Below, in pieces: positions 3,753 through 8,693 of a stretch of DNA of 64,000 nucleotides. The stretch lies in NCBI RefSeq assembly GCF_014132355.1, contig NZ_BLZO01000085.1, positions 1-64,000 of the forward strand, given 5' to 3'. Each line of letters starts with the position of its first letter. The stretch's first letter is position 1. The notes under the pieces were generated by a model. It was not told the origin of the DNA, did not search any database, and saw nothing but the letters and a program-made list of their open reading frames with translations. Origin of the DNA: Okeania sp. KiyG1. GTDB lineage: Bacteria > Cyanobacteriota > Cyanobacteriia > Cyanobacteriales > Microcoleaceae. Made by a program: the position numbers and the translations under genes.

Positions 3753-3934
3753 CTATAGTGTGGGCTTCTCGATTCCTAGCCCTGCCATTGCATCAGGCTC
3801 CACGAGCTTTAAGAACGGAATGCCCTGCCGCCCTATTTTTTATATTTATCGCCACATTTCCTACGGAATGCTACGCAAACAAGTTGCCGTCTATTACAAT
3901 ACCGCAATACGGACAAGAATGAGTTCTTTCTAAA
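3753..3934 (-). pseudogene. TnpB C-terminal remnant (zinc-finger and tail)
   Basis: Read on the minus strand, ERTHSCPYCGIVIDGN resembles one half of the TnpB zinc ribbon (CxxC followed by the residue block leading to RuvC-III). After an interruption by the short repeat around 3858-3885 the frame continues with GRQGIPFLKLVEPDAMAGLG and ends IEKPTL-stop at 3753, a tail style typical of cyanobacterial IS200/IS605 orfB proteins. Beyond the stop a hairpin-forming CACACTA...TAGTGTG sequence would be the element end. Everything upstream of the zinc finger is missing, so it is a dead fragment. Confidence 0.6.
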
Positions 3935-4081
3935 GATTATAGCATTAGAAGGAAAGGGCGCAGACAGATAGAGAGGTTAAAACCCAGAAAATGCAATATT
4001 TTTCGCTCCTTGAGTCCTTTGCTCCTTCGGTTCTTCCTTCTGCTATACCTGATTTTTACTATTTAACTCCTTAATTTCTAT

Positions 4082-5026
4082 ATGACTTTTTTCAATCGAG
4101 ATGAACAGTTAAATATCCTGGGTAAAGACATTATAGAGGCAATCAAGATAGAATTTTCGGAATTAACTAATGAGCAAATTGCTATAACTTGGTTAGTCTA
4201 CGATTTACCAATGGCAGGAAATATCAAGAACCCTACAGAGTTTTGGCAACAGCAAGTGCGTGGTTGGAGCGATCGCGGCGATGAACGGATGTATGCTGGT
4301 GGAATGGTCCATTTATTCTATCTGATAGCTATCTATGAGTGGTTAGAGAAAGGAATGGTCAAAACCTCAGCAGAATTAGAAAGAGCAATTCGAGATATGG
4401 TCGTTTATTCCAGTAACGATGCTACTGGTCTAGTTGTAGATGTTTTAACTGGAACTACCAGTGGACCTGAAATTTCATCAGGACCTTTTCAAACCTGGAA
4501 ATATCAACGTAACTTTGTCAATCGTTATTTTCAATCTCTGAAGTGGCCTGAGTTAAAATCCATTAATGTTAATCAAAAAACATGGTGTGATGGTCCTTAT
4601 GGTCGAGAAAGAATGTTTCAAGGACTATTGATGGAAAATCGGAATATACTGACTACTCATAGCACAGCTCGTTTGTTACATAGTGTTGTAGGTGGGGTTG
4701 CAGTATCTCCTTTAGCTTCACAGAAAATGATGAGCTTGTTCAAGAAAAATTCTGGCCAAGATGAGTTAAGAGATAGAGGTAAAGAACAAGCTATAGGATT
4801 TTTGGATGATAGTCTACCTCCAGATGCTAATGTCTGGAGCAAGGGAATCAGAGATTCCCAGGTGCGTCATAATTTTGCTTATATTGAGTTACCAAATATT
4901 AAGCCATATCTTTTGGTTGTATTTACAGAAGGTAAGAATCTTAGCCAAAATGAACGGATAATGCCTTATATTTCCCAAAAGTTTGTAGAGGCAATGAAAA
5001 AATTAGAGTTAACTTCTGCGGGCTGA
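4082..5026 (+). CDS. serine hydrolase / class A beta-lactamase-like protein, SxxK motif altered
   Basis: 314 residues with the overall pattern of the cyanobacterial beta-lactamase2-like serine hydrolases. Where the catalytic SxxK should stand, in MYAGGMVHLFYLIAIYEW, the sequence has G74 and H77 instead of Ser and Lys. The SDN-like element SSND is at 110-113, and a possible KTG counterpart lies in VWSKGIRDSQVRHNFAYIE. If the alignment is right, the protein cannot acylate a beta-lactam and may be a binding protein or a decaying paralogue. No signal peptide is evident. The last codons (SAG-stop) lie in the first hairpin of the RNA region that precedes the IsrB gene, so the C-terminus was probably rewritten when that element inserted. 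Confidence 0.7.
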   Translation: MTFFNRDEQLNILGKDIIEAIKIEFSELTNEQIAITWLVYDLPMAGNIKNPTEFWQQQVRGWSDRGDERMYAGGMVHLFYLIAIYEWLEKGMVKTSAELERAIRDMVVYSSNDATGLVVDVLTGTTSGPEISSGPFQTWKYQRNFVNRYFQSLKWPELKSINVNQKTWCDGPYGRERMFQGLLMENRNILTTHSTARLLHSVVGGVAVSPLASQKMMSLFKKNSGQDELRDRGKEQAIGFLDDSLPPDANVWSKGIRDSQVRHNFAYIELPNIKPYLLVVFTEGKNLSQNERIMPYISQKFVEAMKKLELTSAG

Positions 5027-5224
5027 AGCCACGCAGCTTGAACGACCCAACGTTTAACTAAGAGTTGACGCTTACCATGAGCCAAAAGCGATAACACTTC
5101 CAGATGTTTTCCTAGTCTGGATTATCTGTTGGCCTTTTTGGGTAAAGGCATCCCGTAATTGGGAGACACAACGTTTTTGGTTGGTCATAGGAACACACAA
5201 CTTTCTCGAAAAGGATTATCTCTT
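5011..5224 (+). ncRNA. candidate omega RNA of the IsrB element
   Basis: The interval between the serine-hydrolase gene and IsrB can form five successive hairpins. They are CTGCG-GGC-TGAA-GCC-A-CGCAG (5016-5036), CGTTTAAC/GTTGACG (5051-5070), CCAGA/TCTGG (5100-5120), GCCTTT/AAAGGC (5132-5149) and TCCC/GGGA (5151-5164). IscB and IsrB proteins are known to use a guide RNA scaffold encoded directly upstream of the gene, with the guide at its 5' side, drawn from sequence flanking the element. Position, strand and size here fit that. By that rule the guide would be the last bases before about 5011, within the end of the hydrolase gene. Structures were found by eye, without a folding program. Confidence 0.6.
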
Positions 5225-6424
5225 ATGATTCGAGTACCTGTCCAAAATCCCAATGGTTCCCCTGCAATGCCCACCAAAGCATCACGGGTACGTCGTTGGA
5301 TCGAGGAAGGAAAAGCTACTGAACACTGGAACGATGCCGGGTTATACTATGTTCGCCTGGTAGCTGAACCATCAGGTTGTCAAACCCAGAAAATAGTAAT
5401 TGGTTGCGACCCAGGCAAAAACTATACGGGAATTGCAGTACAGTCAGCAAAATTAACCCTTTACACCGCGCATTTAGTTTTACCTTTTGAGCGCGTTAAA
5501 GAACGACTTGGCTCTGCTGTTATCAAGCAAGGAAAAGTTATTAAAAATGTTAGAGGTCGAGCATTGCAACGTCGGGTGAGGCGCGGGAGAAGAATTAACA
5601 GAAAAGTGCCTTTTAATCAACGTGCCCACCGACAAAAGCGATTTGATAATCGTCGCAAAAAAGGTAAGCTAGCTCCATCTATTCGAGCATCTAGGGAAAT
5701 GGAAATTAGGATAATAACAGAACTTTCTAAAGTTTTCCCTATTACTACTATTGTTTACGAACTGGTTAAAGCCGATGTAGATTTAACCAGCAGTAGAAAA
5801 GGAGCGCGTTCTGGTAAAGGATTTTCTCCAGTTATGGTTGGGCAAAACTGGTGTGTTGAAAAACTAAAATCTATTGCGCCAGTCAAAACCAAATACGGTT
5901 GGCAAAAAAATAATAACGGCACAAGTCAAATGCCTCTTGCAGAGGAGCTTCGCTTTCGTAAACATTTAGGGTTAGAAAAAGTCAAAGATAAAAAAGCCCA
6001 AGTGCCAGAATCTCATGCAGTAGATGGCATTGCTTTAGCCGCCAGCGAATTTGTTCGTTATGGAGTAACTCCCAGAAAAAACTGCGATACCTGGGGTTGG
6101 AAAGGCTCTGTTAACATCAGTCCTGGCGTTTTTCGAGTAATAACCAGATCGGCTTATTTTCGCCGTGCCTTGCACTTTGATAATGCGGAAAAAGGCGGTA
6201 TCCGCAAACGTAAAGGTGGAACAATTACTCCTTTTAAAGTACGCTTAGGCGATAAAGTCCTTGCTGAAAAAGCTGGAAAAATTTACATTGGATGGGTTGG
6301 AGGTTTTACCGATGGTAAGACTAAAAATATCAGTGTTTATAACCATAACTGGAGGCGAATGGGGCAGTTTTCTCCTCAGAAAGTCCAACTGATTCGTAGG
6401 TCTAATAAACTGTGCGTTGTTTAA
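5225..6424 (+). CDS. isrB: IsrB-like RNA-guided RuvC protein (IscB relative without HNH; RRXRR protein)
   Basis: 399 residues from the ATG at 5225 (a TTG 66 bases upstream is in frame but lies in the structured RNA). Residues 1-50 are a PLMP/RRXRR-type domain (NGSPAMPTKASRVRRWIEEG). RuvC-I is IGCDPGKNYTG (D62). An arginine-rich bridge helix spans about 108-160 (RALQRRVRRGRR). RuvC-II is IVYELVKADVD (E179) and RuvC-III is ESHAVDGIALAAS (H264, D267). RuvC-II and RuvC-III are separated by only about 85 residues with no HNH motif, which is the IsrB rather than the IscB layout. The C-terminal 110 residues (GDKVLAEKAGKIYIGWVGGF) resemble the target-interaction region. All RuvC acidic residues are intact, so an RNA-guided nickase is plausible. 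No TnpA transposase is next to it. Confidence 0.82.
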   Translation: MIRVPVQNPNGSPAMPTKASRVRRWIEEGKATEHWNDAGLYYVRLVAEPSGCQTQKIVIGCDPGKNYTGIAVQSAKLTLYTAHLVLPFERVKERLGSAVIKQGKVIKNVRGRALQRRVRRGRRINRKVPFNQRAHRQKRFDNRRKKGKLAPSIRASREMEIRIITELSKVFPITTIVYELVKADVDLTSSRKGARSGKGFSPVMVGQNWCVEKLKSIAPVKTKYGWQKNNNGTSQMPLAEELRFRKHLGLEKVKDKKAQVPESHAVDGIALAASEFVRYGVTPRKNCDTWGWKGSVNISPGVFRVITRSAYFRRALHFDNAEKGGIRKRKGGTITPFKVRLGDKVLAEKAGKIYIGWVGGFTDGKTKNISVYNHNWRRMGQFSPQKVQLIRRSNKLCVV

Positions 6425-6631
6425 GTCACGGGGGTTGAAACCGCCGTTTGCCTTTCCTCCACCCTTTAAAAAGAGGTGGATTCCAGGCTCTCAATTGCTT
6501 CTGTTGAAGAAGACAGAAGGCAGAAGGGAAAATTCCATAAGGATAGTCTTCAACACGCCACTCAGTGTCTACAAACCCCAAATACATTTTAAGCACTATG
6601 TAGATGGTGGAGTATTAAACCTGCCACTTTA
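6425..6631 (+). other. right flank of the IsrB element with hairpin
   Basis: Just after the IsrB stop, CCACC (6459-6463) and GGTGG (6475-6479) can pair around CTTTAAAAAGA, and GGGGTTGAAACCGCC precedes it. This is the kind of subterminal hairpin expected at an IS200/IS605-type right end. The exact element boundary cannot be fixed without an empty site. An open frame at 6417-6632 has no protein-like features. Confidence 0.4.
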
Positions 6632-6735
6632 ACGAAGTCAGAAGTCAGAAGTTATTTTTGTAACGGGGATTTTAGACCTGTTCCAAAAATACTTCGCCTT
6701 AAAAGGCGGGGTTTTAGACCCATATTATTTTGATC
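6632..6735 (+). repeat. dispersed repeat family J
   Basis: A stretch with GAAGTCAGAAGT, TTATTTTTGTAACGGGGATT and TTCGCCTTAAAAGGC, repeated with about 80 percent identity by eye at 26613-26731. A shorter relative is at about 6937-6985. Function unknown. Confidence 0.65.
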
Positions 6736-6797
6736 AATATAGAGGAAGAACAATTACCTCCTGCCTTCTGCCTCCTGCCTTCTGCCTTTCCTGATAA

Positions 6798-6887
6798 CGG
6801 AGAAGGAGGGATTCGAACCCTCGGTACGGGGTTCTCCCGTACAACTCATTAGCAGTGAGCCGCTTTCGACCACTCAGCCACCTCTCC
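6798..6887 (-). tRNA. tRNA-Ser(GCU)
   Basis: On the minus strand a 90-nt class II tRNA: acceptor stem GGAGAGG pairing with CTTCTCC, discriminator G, D-arm GGCTGAGTGGTCGAAAGC, and anticodon stem-loop CTCACTGCTAATGAG giving anticodon GCU (codons AGU/AGC). A long variable arm (TACGGG/CCCGTA) and the T-arm GGGTTCGAATCCC follow. No CCA is encoded. It is isolated, with repeats on both sides. Confidence 0.97.
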
Positions 6888-7787
6888 AATGATTATTTAC
6901 TATAACAGATATTTGTCGGTTATGGCAAGTCTATCTTAACAAAGTCATAAGTCAGAAGTCAGAAGTCGTTTTTGGAGGTTGCATAAATGCGCTTGGGATT
7001 TTAATAGTTGTGTGGAAGTGGAAGTGGAAGTGGAATGGGCATCTTGCCCGTTCCTAATATTTTCCCGTTCCTGATATTTTCGGGACAGGCAGGATGCCTA
7101 CCCCCACTTACTACTTATATTCCCATTCGCCCCTCAGCAATGCCACTAATTTAGCATGATATGAACAAACTAAATTTGTAGCAGTTATTCAAGGCAAAAG
7201 TTAACTTGCAACTACATAATTTCAAATTAATAGGCAAATTTGACAATTGACAATAGCTTATACTATGTTAAAATTTTTGAGGTTAATTAACTATTGTTGA
7301 TTTATTAATATGAATTAATAATAGTTAACATATATTGATATAGTTATACTGGTCTAACTGTATATCAAGTTGTATACATTATGCTAAATTCTGACAAACA
7401 GAAAAGTTTGTGGTGCGCTCACCAGACCACTATGTAACCGCTATCCTGATAAGTTACCCCTAGTATGGTTAAGTCATTAAAACTTCTGCGACCGCCGAGA
7501 ACCAAGGCAACGTAAGTTTTTAAAAGCGTCTACAGGTTTTCTTCTAGACATTGGGAGATACCCCCTCAGTAGGTCTCACTTGCTGTGCATTGTGAGCAAA
7601 TGGCTCGAAAATAGTATCGGGAACAATCATTATCCTTGTAATGTCTTGGTTCACAAGGGTTAATTTTTCCCTATAAACGAAGATATAAATGAACTAAAAG
7701 GCCATCTATACAGAATCTAAAAGTTAGCTCTTTGAGCAAATCACAGATAAATCAGCAATAGTAAATTCTAAAAAACGAGGTAAGTAA
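6888..7787. other. intergenic region upstream of the RTX gene
   Basis: No convincing gene. It holds a family J relative (6937-6985), GTGGAAGTG and TTCCCGTTCCTGATATTTTC repeats, and two short hairpin repeats built on GGGCATCTTGCCC (7037) and GGCAGGATGCC (7086). From about 7380 to 7700 the sequence is less repetitive and lies directly before the RTX gene, so it is the probable long leader or promoter region. It matched no riboswitch class that I could recognise. Confidence 0.5.
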
Positions 7788-8693
7788 GTGACACAAATAC
7801 CAAATCCAACCACACCATCAGTAGATATACCTAACACTGATGTCGATGATGGGGGGCGTATCCGAATCGGAACTCCAGGAGCAGACCGTATAGGGGGAAC
7901 AGATAGAGCGGACAATATTTCAGCCTTGTCAGGTGATGACTTCGTGGCAGCAGGTGGTGGTAATGATGTAGTTGCATTAGGTGGAGGTTCTGATACTGCA
8001 ACTGGTGGTACTGGCAACGACTCTGCCCAAGGTAACCGAGGAGCTGACTCCATGCTCGGAGGTGCAGGAGATGATTGCCTCAGAGGTGGAAGAGATGATG
8101 ATACTATAGATGGTGGTGCAGATAATGACATTCTCTTCGGCGATCGCGGTGATGATATAGTCAGAGGTGGAGCAGGAGCAGACCTAGTAAGAGGTAATCT
8201 AGGTGTTGATTTCCTACAGGGAGATGGAGGTGCTGATACTCTTCAAGGAGGTAAAGGCAGTGATAGTCTTGATGGTGGTGATGGGGCTGACTTCATATCA
8301 GGAGAAAGAGGGAATGATATTTTAACTGGTGGCGATGGAGCTGATACATTCTTCTTCTTCTATGGTGAAAATGGTACTTATGGAGTTGACACTCTAACAG
8401 ACTTTAATGGAGGAGAAGATAAGATAGTTCTAGCTGCTGGTCCAACTATTCCAGAGGACGCCGGCTTTAATGCTCTAAGTGGTTCAGCAGGAGGTCAGTT
8501 GCCCGCAAATGAGTTTGCAGTGGTTGAGAACTTCGTCCCTGGAACTCAAGGAGACAACCCCGCAGCAATTATATATGACCCTGTTAGTGGTTTAGTCTAC
8601 TATAACCCAACAGGAACTATTGGTGATGAAGATCAAATTCTTCGGGTTGCTCCGAATACCCCATTAGACAACACTGACTTTGAAATCTTCTAA
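7788..8693 (+). CDS. RTX (hemolysin-type calcium-binding) protein
   Basis: 301 acidic residues starting with GTG (AGGTAAGTAA precedes it at Shine-Dalgarno distance). From about residue 28 to 185 it consists of nonapeptide RTX repeats of the type GGxGxDxLx (GGAGDDCLRGG, GGDGADFISGE, GGDGADTFFF) that wind into a calcium-loaded parallel beta-roll. After the repeats a domain beginning TDFNGGEDKIVLAAG, ending with TPLDNTDFEIF, resembles the C-terminal uncleaved signal region of type I secreted proteins. No catalytic domain is present, so it is probably an extracellular or surface protein; such proteins coat filaments or aid gliding in some cyanobacteria. No ABC exporter gene is in the window. A terminator-like hairpin follows. 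Confidence 0.9.
   Translation: MTQIPNPTTPSVDIPNTDVDDGGRIRIGTPGADRIGGTDRADNISALSGDDFVAAGGGNDVVALGGGSDTATGGTGNDSAQGNRGADSMLGGAGDDCLRGGRDDDTIDGGADNDILFGDRGDDIVRGGAGADLVRGNLGVDFLQGDGGADTLQGGKGSDSLDGGDGADFISGERGNDILTGGDGADTFFFFYGENGTYGVDTLTDFNGGEDKIVLAAGPTIPEDAGFNALSGSAGGQLPANEFAVVENFVPGTQGDNPAAIIYDPVSGLVYYNPTGTIGDEDQILRVAPNTPLDNTDFEIF

Follow-up and report, generated by a model that had tools for sequence, protein, structure and literature searches.

The DNA analysed here, referred to as the window, is a stretch of 64,000 nucleotides (nt) from the cyanobacterium Okeania sp. KiyG1 (contig NZ_BLZO01000085.1). Within it, a serine-hydrolase-like gene is followed on the same strand by a hairpin-rich region and by isrB, a gene for a predicted RNA-guided nickase. 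An initial annotation had proposed an IsrB-type feature from 5011 to 6424 with an upstream RNA that contains the stop codon of the neighbouring gene. As set out below, the locus is very probably a non-autonomous mobile element that behaves like members of the IS200/IS605 group and carries an IsrB nickase together with its omega RNA; from the sequence we infer the guide role, the nicking and a transposase supplied in trans.

The open reading frame (ORF) of isrB encodes 399 residues and has the RuvC residues D62, E179 and D267 in the positions given by the initial annotation. The sole Pfam match of the product is RRXRR (PF14239, E 1e-42, residues 4-196), in agreement with the PLMP/RRXRR N-terminus that had been proposed. 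No HNH family was found in the Pfam scan at E 0.001, and the protein aligns end to end with the HNH-less IsrB of Desulfovirgula thermocuniculi (DtIsrB; PDB 8dmb; PMC9581776), which bears out the claim that no HNH lies between RuvC-II and RuvC-III. As searched with phmmer against solved structures, DtIsrB (E 1.3e-40, best stretch residues 2-394) came ahead of the seven IscB sequences listed. The NCBIfam profile for IscB, NF040563, scored 78.9 bits, below its curated cut-off of 175. An AlphaFold2 model was built from a 30-row family alignment (mean predicted local distance difference test, pLDDT, 74.8), and its best match in the PDB was again 8dmb (E 6.1e-26; template modelling score 0.73 by target length). 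Comparison with the solved IsrB thus upheld the proposed identity. The arginine-rich bridge helix was also recovered, with R116, R117, R119 and R120 invariant in 30/30 rows and a helix at 109-122 in the model.

Relatives were collected from one scan of genome contigs, which gave 57 loci, all with cyanobacterial record titles; those nearest to the window isrB belong to Okeania and Hydrocoleum. The D/E/D residues are intact in 51 of the 56 family rows, the five misses being frame-broken (L046, L049 and L056) or mis-oriented (L111 and L114). The counterparts of R378 and Q381 in the alignment with DtIsrB are R323 and Q326, which read positions 3 and 4 of the target-adjacent motif (TAM) according to PMC9581776; the DtIsrB numbering used here is the chain number minus 150, a derived offset that is borne out by R100 and R104, both of which land on Arg. 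R378 is kept in 51/56 rows and Q381 in 50/56, with broken or mis-oriented rows accounting for five of the misses. At the position of Q381, a natural Gln-to-Arg change was seen in a single locus, L027, whose flank is ATGG, as the published Q326R mutant would predict (PMC9581776). Taken from the sequence, these observations support the assignment of the protein as an IsrB with an intact RuvC domain and the TAM-reading Arg and Gln.

The 217 nt upstream of isrB fold better than shuffled sequences (z -3.07; 1/200 shuffles equally good). At least five local hairpins lie within 5016-5164, all five of them in the centroid fold, so that the five hairpins in 150 bases of the initial annotation were confirmed. 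The Rfam family HEARO (RF02033) matches 5008-5201 over its full model at 34.1 bits, with the first stem and hairpin of the model corresponding to stem S1 and stem-loop SL1. At the gathering threshold, the Rfam scan of the window returned one tRNA and nothing else, and the RNA was therefore tested by an alignment of its own family (30 left ends, MAFFT). The consensus structure was written from RNAalifold and the published DtIsrB helices (PMC9581776), and is thus partly derived from the alignment being scored, which favours the fit: 87.4% of 1,637 cells are paired, compared with 70.2% in shuffles. Sliding the partners by 1-3 columns lowers pairing to 29-51%. Double-change cells number 285 against 87 in shuffles, and both sides vary in 40 of the 55 pairs.

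SL2 and SL5 are weakly paired in this alignment (77% and 49.7% of cells), which appears to reflect MAFFT column shifts in part of the family. The pseudoknots were therefore also tested within column ranges, by comparing the pairing of each of the 30 sequences with its own partner and with swapped partners. S1, the adaptor pseudoknot and the nexus pseudoknot were each matched in 0/20,000 permutations, while SL7 beat all but 2; the permutations ignore the relatedness of the sequences. The nexus strands of the window, TTCCTA and TAGGAA, read TCCCTA and TAGGGA in L001, L002, L003, L006 and L056, a compensated change. The upstream omega RNA of the initial annotation is accordingly upheld by covarying helices and both IsrB pseudoknots. 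As for the covariance check suggested with it, the family covariation came out in its favour, while the Rfam model fell in the right place at a low score. By sequence, the left end is shown to be a structured RNA that folds like an IsrB omega RNA.

The left end was placed by aligning the window with eleven close copies and with a second copy from its own genome. The common start is NTCAAC or GTCACC, mostly GTCAAC, and is GTTAAC in the window; the interrupted L007 is unalignable and is excepted. The DNA before the left ends is unlike between copies, except that L001 and L059 have a common flank. At the right end, TTGA is kept across a twelve-row alignment with the exception of L006, which was placed by eye. 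The element is missing at the hydrolase site in all five same-genus genomes other than its own, as the initial annotation had suggested checking. The closest of these, L068, aligns with the joined flanks of the window with no gap across the junction: ...AAAAAATTAGA / TTAAGGAAGGCAG in the window and ...AAAAAATTAGA / TTGAAGAAGACAG in L068, where the slash marks the junction and the one mismatch is inside the tetranucleotide.

The boundary therefore lies between 5007 and 5008, the element runs from 5008 to 6503 and its right flank is the TTGA at 6504-6507 (Table 1). At the 3' end of the hydrolase gene, the element precisely separates ATTAGA from TTGA. The start is 5008 and not 5011, as in the initial annotation; its end at 6424 was not borne out, because the element extends to 6503. 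Precise insertion beside a fixed tetranucleotide and without target duplication, by which IS200/IS605 elements are recognized, is seen at two gap-free empty sites, that of the window and L068 and that of a relative, L113, and its five siblings.

Table 1. Coordinates of the IsrB element, its RNA and its host gene in the window
Feature	Position	Strand	Basis
Serine-hydrolase-like gene	4082-5026	+	ORF; Beta-lactamase2 fold PF13354, Pfam E 4.3e-11
Predicted guide, 20 nt of host gene at left end, GAGGCAATGAAAAAATTAGA	4988-5007	+	Analogy with DtIsrB (PMC9581776); empty-site boundary
IsrB mobile element, 1,496 bp	5008-6503	+	Left-end and right-end alignments; gap-free empty site; no tnpA ORF inside
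omega RNA scaffold to isrB start (S1, SL1, SL2, SL4, SL5, SL7, two pseudoknots)	5008-5224	+	Covariation, folding; weak HEARO match
Guide-adaptor region closed by S1 (from 5008 with 5063-5069)	5008-5069	+	Covariation
SL1, TGAA loop with present hydrolase stop 5024-5026	5016-5036	+	Folding
SL2	5038-5057	+	Centroid fold
SL2 loop ACCCAA, adaptor pseudoknot strand, partner 5138-5143	5045-5050	+	Own-versus-swapped test, 30 sequences
SL4	5099-5121	+	Centroid fold
SL4 loop TTCCTA, nexus pseudoknot strand, partner 5188-5193	5109-5114	+	0/20,000 permutations; 98.3% of cells paired
SL5	5132-5149	+	Centroid fold; absent from minimum-energy fold
SL5 loop TTGGGT, second adaptor pseudoknot strand	5138-5143	+	Same own-versus-swapped test
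Further hairpin	5151-5164	+	Centroid fold
TAGGAA before SL7, second nexus pseudoknot strand	5188-5193	+	Own-versus-swapped test
SL7, small hairpin over Shine-Dalgarno-like AGGA just before isrB	5212-5224	+	95.5% of cells paired over family
isrB, 399 aa: PLMP/RRXRR, bridge helix, RuvC D62/E179/D267, TAM-reading R378 and Q381, no HNH	5225-6424	+	ORF, Pfam, phmmer, alignment, model
TTGA right-flank tetranucleotide, target site and predicted TAM	6504-6507	+	Right-end alignment, empty site, TAM of PMC9581776

The last 19 nt of the hydrolase ORF (5008-5026) are thus element sequence. The present stop codon, TGA, opens the TGAA loop of SL1, and translation of the gene now finishes with KKLELTSAG-stop. 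Counterparts of the hydrolase gene were sought in 40 genomes. The gene ends in KKLD-TAA in L068 and, as ...TTACAATAA, in KKLQ-TAA in L069, L070, L071 and L072. When the flanks of the window are rejoined without the element they read TTA GAT TGA, that is KKLD-TGA, so that the original stop was most likely inside the TTGA where the element landed. On this reconstruction, the original C-terminus was probably KKLD-stop and the original stop codon most likely the TGA at 6505-6507, now at the far side of the element. It is supported by the same comparison that the left end supplies the gene with a substitute stop. The initial annotation had correctly located the TGA in the loop of the first hairpin, but this codon belongs to the element and is not the original stop of the host gene. 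The gene and the RNA do share sequence, as had been claimed; the cause that was missed is that the element landed at the stop codon of the gene, most likely displacing the host stop to the TTGA at 6504-6507.

Given the boundary, the predicted guide is 4988-5007. A guide at the end of the hydrolase gene had been anticipated, and only its end is moved by the empty site, from near 5011 to 5007. The DtIsrB scaffold carries a 20-nt guide on its 5' side, and the TAM of this protein is NTGA, with TTGA at 60 degrees (PMC9581776). By analogy, the last codons of the hydrolase gene appear to be the guide of the element. The flank TTGA is the same as the published DtIsrB TAM, an agreement with NTGA that is one of position only. 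The genome of the window has no second site with fewer than three mismatches to the predicted guide, and 13 sites with three. The five empty relatives are identical to it at 19-20 of the 20 guide bases; with TTAA or ATAA instead of NTGA beside these, they should therefore escape nicking.

To compare landing sites over the family, 56 right ends were placed by eye, from 52 of the 57 loci, L112, L113, L130 and the window. L008 and L048, whose right end is unplaceable, and L052, L053 and L057, which are cut or interrupted, were left out. The 56 flanks are all distinct, and read TTGA in 28 cases, ATGA in 27 and ATGG in one. In a 50-row tree with midpoint rooting, the ATGA and ATGG rows group together in a single clade (support 0.91) that contains no TTGA row. 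Members of this clade mostly carry YGGT-TRH and SGDT, while KGGT-TPF with GGYT or GGFT is usual in the TTGA clade. This difference amounts to one split on the tree, and the idea that these signature residues set the first TAM base is therefore put forward only as a hypothesis drawn from the alignment.

The landing-site tests treat insertions as independent. An ATG was counted as a start codon if it opens at least 100 codons in a frame that is not open 50 codons upstream. By this rule, 15 of the 27 ATGA insertions stand at a start codon (L013, L022, L023, L029, L032, L033, L038, L039, L041, L042, L044, L047, L051, L112 and L113), compared with 59 of the 1,330 ATGA sites that these flanks contain (odds ratio 27, p 2.8e-13); the upstream part of the rule was inapplicable to L032, L041, L051, L112 and L113, for which no left end had been placed, and the left flank of L013 is only 11 nt. 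Among insertions with both flanks of at least 300 nt, 9/20 stand at start codons (p 1.3e-7 against 59/1,330). With left ends placed afterwards, L112 and L113 pass the rule; L130 is a non-start.

The right flank of L113 was found in 10 genomes of its genus. In 5/5 sibling loci read, a near-identical left flank runs straight into this ATGA, and the element therefore stands immediately before the start codon of its host gene. A second genome set was scored at the first ATGA after the end of isrB. Of its 40 stretches, 23 were counted, the others being without the C-terminal signature, short of flank or already in the first set (L157 and L170). Start codons were found in 8/23 against 20/375 in the control (p 5e-5); in this set, the 50 codons ahead of the first ATGA belong to the element and not to the host. 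A looser rule gave 10/24, with L170 already in the first set, against 32/149 (p 0.034); its control took downstream same-strand ATGA only and counted in-frame ATGs inside genes, and it was replaced by the rule of the first set. Shine-Dalgarno-like words occur 4-14 nt before the junction in 10/27 ATGA right ends and 2/28 TTGA right ends (p 0.008). At the close of several right ends of the ATGA clade, AAGGAG or GAGG stands a few bases ahead of the ATG.

In the TTGA clade, 4/26 insertions are at stop codons, compared with 18/2,331 control sites (p 7e-5). Among sites outside genes the excess shrinks to 3/22 against 18/691 (p 0.024), and without the window to 2/21 (p 0.11), so that stop landing may be a matter of survivorship. 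On such an account, insertion takes place at any TTGA, gene-internal insertions are lost and the fall on a stop codon is chance. We consider this slightly more likely than not: gene-internal TTGA insertions are indeed strongly depleted (2/24 against 1,640/2,331 control sites) and the excess among the non-internal sites is modest. Nevertheless, it leaves the start-codon excess of the ATGA clade standing, since among non-internal sites this is still 9/17 against 59/446 (p 1.8e-4). Start landing is not explained by survivorship alone. A separate idea, that the left end has been selected for a stop in the phase needed at N/TGA, was rejected: stops in the first 30 nt fall in that phase in 27/51 left ends, in another in 28/51 and in the third in 13/51.

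Tentatively, a wider proposal can be made from the two clades. Cyanobacterial IsrB proteins of one clade would read TTGA and those of the other ATGA, and both would live on translation signals. ATGA elements would sit before start codons, some with a Shine-Dalgarno sequence in the right end, and TTGA elements could settle on stops, with the left end giving a new stop. The guide would then be supplied either by the upstream gene, from its end, or by the downstream gene, from its 5' leader. An element placed between promoter and gene, or at the end of a gene, would use host transcripts and leave the proteins nearly intact.

For the mobile element of the window, the following course of events may be envisaged. 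Read-through from the hydrolase gene would yield one RNA, with 4988-5007 as the guide in its 5' part and the scaffold from 5008. The scaffold would bind IsrB, the last 20 nt of gene sequence serving as guide. IsrB would nick the non-target strand at chromosome copies with the empty site, guide plus TTGA, that is still present or has been regained after excision, and repair from an occupied copy would restore or spread the element. Its movement would depend on a Y1 transposase in trans, and each new insertion would draw its guide from the landing place. Survival of the hydrolase gene would follow from the landing on its stop codon, for which the left end gives a replacement.

Several results weigh against this picture. 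The genome of the window has 24 Y1 matches; in 20 of the corresponding loci, read with 1.5-kb flanks, no pair of ends matched with at most 2 mismatches, only scattered 12-13-mers, and a partner elsewhere or with diverged ends may exist. A promoter scan of 3900-6900 was no better than chance (6 sites against 6.1 in shuffles). All five empty relatives carry TTAA or ATAA at the site, not TTGA, and because all have TAA there, a TTGA before the insertion can only be deduced. The HEARO match missed the gathering score (34.1 against 83 bits), which 0/20 relatives reach. The fold model is poor in places, with pLDDT below 50 at 58 of the 399 residues.

That no matching transposase turned up in the genome is what would be expected of a decayed and immobile relic, that is an old IsrB insertion that neither moves nor acts any longer and is kept as the end of the hydrolase gene. 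The one other left-end copy in the same genome, in which the isrB match stops at residue 282, and the isrB fragments on contig C140 point the same way. Nevertheless, the isrB frame in the window is open with its catalytic and TAM residues present, and the nexus pseudoknot differs from close rows in a paired way (TTCCTA/TAGGAA against TCCCTA/TAGGGA). A relic is considered unlikely. That the RNA is simply a transposon end and a 5' leader regulating isrB translation, with no guide in the hydrolase codons, is very improbable: although SL7 over the Shine-Dalgarno-like AGGA is conserved and leader-type control has also been suggested for DtIsrB (PMC9581776), a simple leader would not need both of the tertiary contacts that DtIsrB requires for nicking, and these are kept here by compensatory change.

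The mobile, guide-carrying element was compared with known systems. IscB proteins also have a bridge helix and an omega RNA at the left end. The likeness of the window protein to IscB (NF040563; OgeuIscB structures) covers the N-terminal 180 residues and RuvC, while it has no HNH and its NCBIfam score is under the IscB cut-off. TnpB of IS605 likewise takes its guide from the flank of the element, with the target tetranucleotide as TAM, but its RNA is at the right end, unlike here, and it belongs to a different protein family. HEARO has a likeness in its full-length alignment, including S1 and SL1, and differs in a score far under its threshold. The first description of HEARO elements reportedly named ATGA or GTGA as their target, in which case ATGA is an already known target.

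The orthologues CwIsrB (Crocosphaera) and DsIsrB (Dolichospermum) come from cyanobacterial hosts, as does the element described here. Both have been published with NTG as TAM and have the same pseudoknot arrangement, SL2 with SL5 and SL4 with the strand beside SL7 (PMC9581776). They differ in this TAM from the flank TTGA found here, a comparison made by description (PMC9581776). DtIsrB is like the window element in the full-length protein match, the lack of HNH, the TAM-reading Arg and Gln and the TTGA, and in its omega RNA with S1, SL1, SL2, SL4, SL5, SL7 and both pseudoknots, the mutation of which abolishes its nicking (PMC9581776). The two proteins have 30% identity in the structural alignment. 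In the phmmer alignment, residues 90-103 and 223-235 of the window protein are opposite gaps in 8dmb. The DtIsrB scaffold is 262 nt long, against 217 nt to the start codon here (PMC9581776).

IsrB, its RNA and its TAM are thus already published, and landing at start and stop codons is the newer part. The terms 'start codon' and 'stop codon' are both absent from the main text of the IsrB structure paper (PMC9581776). No paper that treats start or stop codons as insertion sites of IsrB or IscB was among the matches listed in a literature search of titles and abstract openings that covered few subscription papers. IS605-type stem loops have been linked to lipoprotein genes in Borrelia (PMC2775950). 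At the present locus, a natural IsrB element has been delimited for which the empty site, the predicted guide, the TAM and the host gene are all at hand, and sister genomes that are empty at the site exist in the genus. The family comparison ties the TAM choice of the protein to the position of the element in host genes, through one Q-to-R change with ATGG and two signature clades with TTGA and ATGA. Two open points become testable, namely the service of the nickase to its element and the residues that set the first TAM base. The family pattern of start and stop landing deserves a proper survey.

Other copies and relatives were also noted. The second element copy in the genome of the window lies at C87:8213-9058, and its isrB match ends after residue 282. 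On the short contig C140 (L059-L063 cover C87 and C140), 3' pieces of isrB are present twice in inverted orientation, probably from this second copy. At C154:57350-57808, C172:64406-64888 and C65:19127-19588 there are three further open frames, whose 430-509 codons fall within the size range of IscB; they match the N-terminal 180 residues at 35-36% identity. In two relatives, group II introns (Rfam Intron_gpII; L007:2422-2500 and L052:2427-2503) end where the matched isrB segment begins or no more than 3 nt away, placing a retroelement inside the gene of an RNA-guided element.

Beyond the element, a tRNA-Ser (GCT) lies at 6797-6888 on the minus strand of the window, and the same kind of tRNA-Ser sequence follows the hydrolase gene by about 100 nt or less in L070 and L071. 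Further downstream, the ORF at 7788-8693 has many GG-G-D repeats and by eye resembles calcium-binding RTX-like proteins.

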